Origin: an uncultured Poribacteria bacterium
GTDB lineage: Bacteria; Poribacteria; WGA-4E; PCPOR2b
DNA length: 64,000 nt
NCBI GenBank assembly: GCA_958296125.1
Contig: OY282444.1
Coordinates: 744,001-808,000, forward strand
Reading direction: 5' to 3'
In this document: positions 42,396 to 54,976 of the stretch, piece by piece
How positions within the stretch are numbered: the first letter of the stretch is position 1
Layout of the letters: each line of letters opens with the position of its first letter
The notes under the pieces: generated by a model
The model's input: only the letters and a program-made list of their open reading frames with translations
Databases searched by the model: none
Told to the model about the DNA's origin: nothing
Made by a program: the position numbers and the translations under genes

Positions 42396-42719
42396 TCACT
42401 GGCACCATCGATGATCCCATTTGCAGATCCCCATTTGTGAAATGTTGGCATACCCCCGTTTCCTCAGTGCATCGTGGCAAAGGTTGCAGGTGATACTATA
42501 AAGCCATCCCGCGAACTTATCGGGTGCTTTCAGCGTCTCCAAGTGCTGATAGGCATGGAAAAACGCTTCTTGGACAAGGTCTTCCGCCTCTGACCGATTA
42601 TGGACTTCCGACAATGCCCGGTTTAACAAGCCCAATTGATGCCGTTCCATTAAGCGGTCAAAAGCGGTGTTATCCCCCTGAAGGGTTCGGTTGACTAACT
42701 TTGCATCAAACGATAACAT
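42396..42719 (-). pseudogene. ECF sigma factor fragment: sigma-2 only
   Basis: 107 aa. Sigma-2 is complete (SEVHNRSEAEDLVQEAFFHA, FAGWLYSITCNLCHDALRKR), but 22 residues later the frame stops. No sigma-4 sequence is visible in any frame before the next gene at 42352. A full ECF protein is about 180 aa, so the second half was lost, probably by deletion. The product may still bind core polymerase but should not recognise a -35 element. AAGGAGG precedes ATG 42719. Confidence 0.8.
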
Positions 42720-53113: not shown

Positions 53114-53701
53114 ATGGTATTTGCAGAAACAGCGAAGCGGCATATTTTCAAGTACAATACGCTACTCGGGATTGGTTGTGGAATACTAGTGGTTGTGTTA
53201 GGATTGTATTCTTTGACAATAAGGGGTAATATAGGCATAGGGTTTATATTGATCGGTATAAGTTTCATAACCTTAAATTTCTTACAGAGGAAACTGATGC
53301 TTATCTGCACTGTCGTTATCCTTGGGCTCGCTTTGTGGATTATCATCTTCAAGCCCTTCTCCAACCCCGGAGATGATACCGCTAGGAAAGCAGTGGGGGT
53401 GCAGCAGGAGGCTGTGGGTCAAGCACCAAAGCCCAACAATGTCCTAAGCGATATAGCTACGGATAAAGAGTTGAACACCCATGATGTGATAAATCAGCTC
53501 ATGCCACCCGAGCTACGCGATGACCCAATGATTCAGAAGATGATGGTGGTTACGGCCTCCGATTCATTTCAAGAGCAGGTGAAGGCACAAAATCCACAGA
53601 GGCCACTAACAGACAGGGAGATTGCTCTCCATCCAGGGCATCGCCCCGGTGAGTCGACTCGCCGGGGCACAATCCAGAAACTTGTTGAGAAAGGAGATTA
53701 A
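53114..53701 (+). CDS. Membrane protein of ECF locus 3, unknown
   Basis: 195 aa from ATG 53114 (AGGAGG ten bases upstream; the frame extends further without a site). Three hydrophobic helices lie at ~residues 17-36, ~40-58 and ~64-84. An acidic helical tail follows, with LMPPELRDDPMIQKMM and QNPQRPLTDREIALHPGHRP. No family recognised. The stop lies four bases before the next start, so it is coupled to the split tail protein. Confidence 0.7.
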   Translation: MVFAETAKRHIFKYNTLLGIGCGILVVVLGLYSLTIRGNIGIGFILIGISFITLNFLQRKLMLICTVVILGLALWIIIFKPFSNPGDDTARKAVGVQQEAVGQAPKPNNVLSDIATDKELNTHDVINQLMPPELRDDPMIQKMMVVTASDSFQEQVKAQNPQRPLTDREIALHPGHRPGESTRRGTIQKLVEKGD

Positions 53702-53705
53702 CATC

Positions 53706-53939
53706 ATGTTGAATCGTCGTTTTACCCCATATTTTGTTGCGGTCGGTATTCTTGCGTTGCTTTCCGCATCGTATTTGGGCTATAAGAAATACCAAAACTA
53801 TGTTGAATTTGAGGAATTTATGTCTCAAGCGATGGCATTTCAACGGTCCCTTGATAAAGACACCCAACCCGATGTAGGTTCAGCCGATTGGCAGACCGCA
53901 CAGAGGGGGGGGACTCTGCCTCCCTGGCAAGGGGAGTAG
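53706..53939 (+). CDS. N-terminal part of a split GLRRLR-tail protein (anchor)
   Basis: 77 aa from ATG 53706 (GAAAGGAG upstream). The membrane anchor (YFVAVGILALLSASYLGY, ~residues 9-26) is like those of the other tail proteins. The frame ends at TAG 53937 soon after a G8 run (53905-53912). A shift of one base in that run would join it to the frame that codes the rest of the protein. It is either the product of a damaged gene or the zero-frame product of a slippage-controlled gene. Confidence 0.65.
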   Translation: MLNRRFTPYFVAVGILALLSASYLGYKKYQNYVEFEEFMSQAMAFQRSLDKDTQPDVGSADWQTAQRGGTLPPWQGE

Positions 53940-54865
53940 CCGCCGGCCAAACGGGGCGGAAAAACACTCACAGGGGAGATGTCCCAAACCTGCCTCTGAA
54001 GGTGCAGATGCTAACGCCAGAGAAGGTGGCAAAATATAGTGACGGAGACCCCAACGGCGCGGTATTGATAAGAAAGAACCCTCTCCCAGACATACCAGAT
54101 GGGAGTTTGAGCGTGGATGAAATGGTAACACAGGCCATTGAGCTCCCCAATGGGAAAGTCGTTGAGATCCGAGTAACTCCCGGACTGGAGATTCAGGAAG
54201 GTGATCAGGTCTCACTCAAATTCATTGCGAACCATATACTAGTCCGAACTACACATGTAGAGATGGATGGGGAAAGGTATGAGGTTCCAATAGACGTAGA
54301 CTCCGGCGTGTTCATTGACAAATTGGCTTGGGCTCATCAATTGGGGGTTTCAATGGAAGAGGTTGATGCAATGATTGCGAATCGGAAACTGATTGTGAAG
54401 CCAGAAGGTAAGCCGATGACCTCTGAGGAAGAAGGAATCATGTCAAGATTGCTGCGCACAATCCCGAAGTTCAAGTCTTTTCTACGGTCAGAGAGGCCCG
54501 ACTTACACGGAGCTGAAACTGTCCATGATAGGACAGAAAAGCTGCCTTCTAAGAGTCGGGAGATCGAACCGGGTGATACTGACTCTTCCTCATATCCAAG
54601 GCGATCGCCCCTGTCTGAGTCCAATCCTGTACCCCAAGGCAAGGTGGAAAGACAGGCACCTCTGCCATCAGAACCGCCAACAGCGTTAAGCCAAGAAGCG
54701 CAAGTCAGGGATCGGTTGTCATCGGAGCGTTTTTCAAGGGCAAAAGCACTCTTGGACGAATACGGCCCCGAGGAGGGGCTGCGTCGTCTGAGAGCGACGG
54801 ATCCGGACGCTGCAGCGCAATTTGAGCGGGATCGCCACGAGCGGAAAATGAATATAGAACCGTAG
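53888..54865 (+). CDS. C-terminal part of a split GLRRLR-tail protein
   Basis: The frame is open from ATG 53888, just before the G8 run, to TAG 54863. It has no ribosome-binding site of its own and no signal or membrane segment. It contains a SAF-like/beta region (LPNGKVVEIRVTPGLEIQEG), VDAMIANRKLIVKPEGKPMT, an acidic linker, and the shared tail SSERFSRAKALLDEYGPEEG-LRRLRATDPDAAAQFER. Joined to the anchor at 53706 it would give a ~385-aa protein with the same layout as those at 39.2 and 40.9 kb. Confidence 0.7.
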   Translation: MADRTEGGDSASLARGVAAGQTGRKNTHRGDVPNLPLKVQMLTPEKVAKYSDGDPNGAVLIRKNPLPDIPDGSLSVDEMVTQAIELPNGKVVEIRVTPGLEIQEGDQVSLKFIANHILVRTTHVEMDGERYEVPIDVDSGVFIDKLAWAHQLGVSMEEVDAMIANRKLIVKPEGKPMTSEEEGIMSRLLRTIPKFKSFLRSERPDLHGAETVHDRTEKLPSKSREIEPGDTDSSSYPRRSPLSESNPVPQGKVERQAPLPSEPPTALSQEAQVRDRLSSERFSRAKALLDEYGPEEGLRRLRATDPDAAAQFERDRHERKMNIEP

Positions 54866-54909: not shown

Positions 54910-54976
54910 AGCCACCTCTTTGATTCATATCCCTCCCCCATACGCGGGGAAGGCAGAATCGGGAGGTGGCTTTTTT
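54910..54976 (+). terminator. Intrinsic terminator of ECF locus 3
   Basis: AGCCACCTC and GAGGTGGCT form a 9-bp stem around a ~44-nt G+C-rich insert, followed by TTTTTT. It lies 45 bases past the last gene. The left half is also present at 52613 but there lacks its partner stem. Confidence 0.8.

Follow-up and report, generated by a model that had tools for sequence, protein, structure and literature searches.

Why does one gene in a stretch of Poribacteria DNA appear as two overlapping reading frames that meet at a run of eight G residues (G8)? The stretch (the window) is 64,000 nucleotides long and covers positions 744001-808000 of the single 5.16-Mb contig of an uncultured Poribacteria bacterium (assembly GCA_958296125.1, contig OY282444.1), a genome with an estimated completeness of 98.85%. 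In the gene in question, a frame that encodes a membrane anchor (frame A) is followed by a frame that encodes the C-terminal part of the protein (frame B). The first-pass annotation left three options for this arrangement, namely a recent frameshift mutation, phase variation or programmed slippage, and named an assembly error only as something that would refute them. The analysis reported here favors the first option, a derived frameshift at the G8 run in a redundant and decaying protein family. It would be an ordinary loss-of-function mutation, and we give this explanation a probability of roughly 0.55. A miscall of the run nevertheless has to be reckoned with, since the same assembly contains another gene, strongly conserved, that is frame-broken at a run of nine G residues (G9).

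The overlap of two frames at the G8 run was confirmed by the sequence, by hexamer coding scores and by homology. Frame A runs from an ATG at 53706 to a TAG at 53937-53939, and frame B, which has 325 codons when counted from its first possible start (a TTG at 53888), is shifted to the -1 register with respect to frame A. Before the run the hexamer score was +19 for frame A compared to -38 and -46 for the other two frames, and downstream it was +72 for frame B compared to -163 and -185; the training set took in nearby open reading frames, and these scores are supportive only. It had been proposed that a one-base shift would restore a single protein of ~385 amino acids. This agrees with the combined length of the two frames and with relatives of 381, 384 and 388 amino acids that carry both parts in one frame.

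Those relatives came from a protein search across 59 genomes (the source genome and its relatives), which found close relatives of the split protein in two congeneric genomes; the named records are Candidatus Poribacteria metagenome-assembled genomes. At three loci in these two genomes, the anchor and C-terminal halves lie in one uninterrupted frame of 381-388 amino acids. The matches of the two halves abut on these proteins, with the anchor matching to residue 68 (QRG) or slightly further and the C-terminal half aligning from residue 3 to 7, exactly at the G8 position. There the relatives have the codons CAG AGG GGA AGG or CAG AAG GGG AA(T/C), and a long G run is absent here from all three loci; the exact G8 site was found in 0 of 5 other genomes of the genus. 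Because the relatives are single-frame and have no long G run, the split is derived, either in the lineage of the source genome or in its assembly. By homology, the register change falls between about 53905 and 53941, and the G run would be the parsimonious, though not proven, position within that interval. A scan of viral contigs gave no match.

Table 1. Features of the split gene and its surroundings (window coordinates), followed by the single-frame relatives.
Feature	Location	Strand	Basis
Gene just upstream of frame A, 245 amino acids	52964..53701	+	homologue comparison
Likely ribosome-binding site of frame A, AAAGGAG, 9 bases 5' of ATG	53690..53696	+	read in sequence
Frame A, 77 amino acids: one transmembrane helix and start of linker, then TAG	53706..53939	+	51-55% identity to single-frame relatives
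Frame B, C-terminal part, ending in conserved helical domain RFSRAKALLDEYGPEEGLRRLRATDPDAAAQFER	53888..54865	+	homology from ~residue 7
G8 run, site of register change	53905..53912	+	sequence reading; relatives have AGG GGA AGG or AAG GGG AA(T/C)
GAAGG and internal ATG 54008 in frame B; candidate independent start of a 285-amino-acid fragment without membrane anchor	53998..54010	+	read in sequence
Terminator-like inverted repeat AGCCACCTC ... GAGGTGGCT, then six T; likely end of transcription unit	54910..54976	+	read in sequence
Single-frame relative, 384 amino acids	G003:C94		52% identity
Single-frame relative, 388 amino acids	G003:C25		46% identity
Single-frame relative, 381 amino acids	G001:C90		44% identity

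The model favored here is that a gene for a multi-copy, membrane-anchored Poribacteria protein acquired a derived one-base register change at the G run, probably through slipped-strand replication. Frame B is still open for 316 codons beyond the run and has normal coding statistics, which suggests that the event was recent. The anchor would still be translatable, but since a stop is reached eight codons past the run the conserved C-terminal part would not be made from the normal start, and the gene would presumably be inactivated. In its single-frame relatives, its derived one-base change at a G run and the decay of other family members, this case resembles a homopolymer-indel frameshift pseudogene. 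It differs in nothing essential, being apparently recent with a downstream frame that is still open.

The mutation option also gains from the state of the family. A conserved C-terminal domain is common to seven loci in the source genome (the split gene and six others), and three of the seven are broken, each by a different kind of lesion; in two of these three the lesion is not a homopolymer error. In paralogue L003 (contig positions 2070804-2071628), an in-frame TGA cuts off the N-terminal part, with its transmembrane segment, from the conserved rest of the protein, and the frame before the TGA resembles the middle of paralogue L002. In paralogue L007 (L007/L141; contig positions 2217995-2219178, minus strand), the match runs through three successive frames, whereas its relatives in G002, G003 and G004 are encoded in one frame of 381-409 amino acids; there are no runs of 6 or more at either frame junction. 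The gene just upstream of frame A is shortened as well: most of it matches a 452-amino-acid relative in G003, but ~200 residues at the C-terminus, among them the conserved domain, are missing. A sigma factor beside two other paralogues in the window has kept region 2 only. The damaged paralogues and the shortened neighbor fit a redundant, decaying family, and a real mutation at the G8 run becomes more probable a priori in such a setting of redundancy and decay.

The main competitor is a homopolymer assembly or base-calling miscall, in which case the gene in the cell would be intact and in a single frame. We consider this unlikely on balance, though it deserves to be taken seriously. The genome is in one contig, which suggests long reads, and a macro-domain gene (Pfam Macro, 2.7e-42; G000:C1:4387199-4387540, minus strand, L105/L139) loses its register at a G9 run (4387518-4387526) that lies inside the GGGGVDGAIH motif of its conserved NAAN..L.GGGGVDGAIH segment. 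In both genes a long G run coincides with a one-base shift of the same sign, as under-calling would produce and as replication slippage would too. Several points weigh against the favored explanation. The macro-domain gene is strongly conserved and is broken in the same assembly. A real base change and a homopolymer miscall are indistinguishable by sequence alone, and the genome contigs scanned included relatives only and no second assembly of the same species. The open downstream frame and its coding bias would also be expected of a gene that is intact and miscalled, or of one that is phase-variable.

The behavior of long runs across the genome argues in the other direction. Runs of 8 or more G or C number 68 in 5.16 Mb, and the window has 1 such run compared to 1.8 expected under a first-order Markov model, so the G8 observation is qualified by the fact that long G runs are not rare in this genome. 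Well within frames of at least 200 codons there are 43 of them. Of the runs flanked on each side by coding signal (n=37), 34 kept the frame, 2 clearly changed it (the G8 gene and the macro-domain gene) and 1 was marginal; intact frames also contain several runs of 9 to 11. Frame changes were found at 29 of 858 random window positions, many of them at ordinary junctions of neighboring genes, and the broken fraction at long runs (3/37) was not clearly above this. These counts came from a pattern search and individual loci; the sample is a small one and leaves out genes in which the run had shortened to fewer than 8. The run-centered test took the place of a search for further split genes by coding score, which covered 243 kb, returned natural gene overlaps only and was too strict to recover the G8 case. 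Across the genome, then, long G runs and broken frames are not clearly connected, and this counts against gross homopolymer error as well as against a poly-G switching system acting genome-wide. The completeness estimate and the family members broken without homopolymers also speak against a miscall. At one further G8 run, near 1242893 (locus L069), the translation has evenly repeated units (VTTRAPMKRGLK / NPCPDEKGTE), and this locus is probably a CRISPR (clustered regularly interspaced short palindromic repeats) array.

Phase variation, in which slippage in the G run would let some subpopulations make the anchored protein and others not, is a possible but rather improbable explanation. Work on Campylobacter jejuni has shown that certain genes are switched by poly-G tracts of at least 8 (PMC6321876), and by analogy an intragenic tract of 8 would be long enough to do so here. 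Both halves of the gene are otherwise intact, the family is predicted to be membrane-anchored, and the run falls in a linker predicted, at low confidence, to be disordered. However, the relatives lack a G tract at this position, frame breaks are not clearly more frequent at long runs than at random positions, and most long runs lie in intact frames. Unlike the Campylobacter contingency loci, there is neither a tract in relatives nor a recurrent association of tracts with broken frames, and two states are not evidenced. Nothing specific favors this option, and the suggestion made for it in the first-pass annotation drew no positive evidence, while the mutation option gained support from run-free relatives and from family members broken in other ways. 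That the run is a contingency locus switching a membrane-anchored protein in a sponge symbiont is, if anything, a little more doubtful. A full-text literature search on Poribacteria with 'phase variation' gave only one paper, of a general kind, and such a poly-G switch in Poribacteria, if real, would probably be new to the literature.

Programmed -1 ribosomal frameshifting or transcriptional slippage, which would produce the fused protein beside a short anchor, is very unlikely. Genes with programmed -1 frameshifts can have G-rich slippery heptamers, as in the gpG-gpGT pair of phage lambda. The sequence G GGG GGG is likewise a formal X XXY YYZ heptamer in a -1 overlap, with GGG GGG as the zero-frame codons, a register change of the right sign and a zero-frame stop eight codons past the run. 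However, the heptamer and the overlapping frames are not conserved, and the fused product here is the ordinary single-frame product of the relatives. The downstream fold of -29 kcal/mol is unremarkable (z = -1.0, with 28 of 200 shuffles at least as stable), the sequence before the run shows no Shine-Dalgarno-like stimulator, and the number of long runs in the window matches chance. The programmed option of the first-pass annotation is therefore not upheld. It had also been stated that the second frame lacks a ribosome-binding site, which holds for TTG 53888, upstream of the run, where a 3-base AGG is the only motif of this kind, but not for ATG 54008, which has GAAGG five bases 5' of it. That motif is what would favor two separate genes with frame B translated alone from an internal start, but this is very improbable, as GAAGG belongs to K-V-Q-M codons that are also found in relatives, the homology extends 5' of ATG 54008 up to the G run, TTG 53888 precedes the run with no good ribosome-binding site, and the relatives join both halves in one frame.

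The protein that the favored frameshift would interrupt begins with an N-terminal membrane helix, followed by the linker at the G run, a small middle region and, at the C-terminus, a helical domain. The family as a whole is multi-copy in Poribacteria, and its members combine an N-terminal membrane helix with a variable middle and a conserved C-terminal helical domain. Pfam and NCBIfam gave no family above threshold for the split protein; matches to PASTA and Gram_pos_anchor were sub-threshold and were not credited. The AlphaFold model of a single-frame relative was poor (predicted local distance difference test 52, predicted template modeling score 0.29). A ~45-residue C-terminal domain (RF..A..L..YG.EEGLRRLRE.DPE.A.Q.ER) is common to many otherwise divergent proteins across the order and is present in many Poribacteria genomes, and it matched no Pfam or NCBIfam family. 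About 3 kb upstream of the split gene, on the same strand, there are an extracytoplasmic function (ECF)-type sigma factor and a weak anti-sigma match, and in G004 a distant family member stands directly before homologues of the same sigma/anti-sigma pair. Judged from this layout, the protein may be a membrane-anchored accessory of sigma-factor-linked clusters. A separate ECF-type sigma factor of 107 amino acids (window 42396-42719, minus strand), which has region 2 without region 4, adjoins two family paralogues.

The data presented here suggest some caution in reading such loci, in that a homopolymer-split gene in a single-contig genome will usually be a fresh loss-of-function change or a miscall. 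A by-product of the analysis is an unnamed multi-copy protein family of Poribacteria that is decaying in the source genome.
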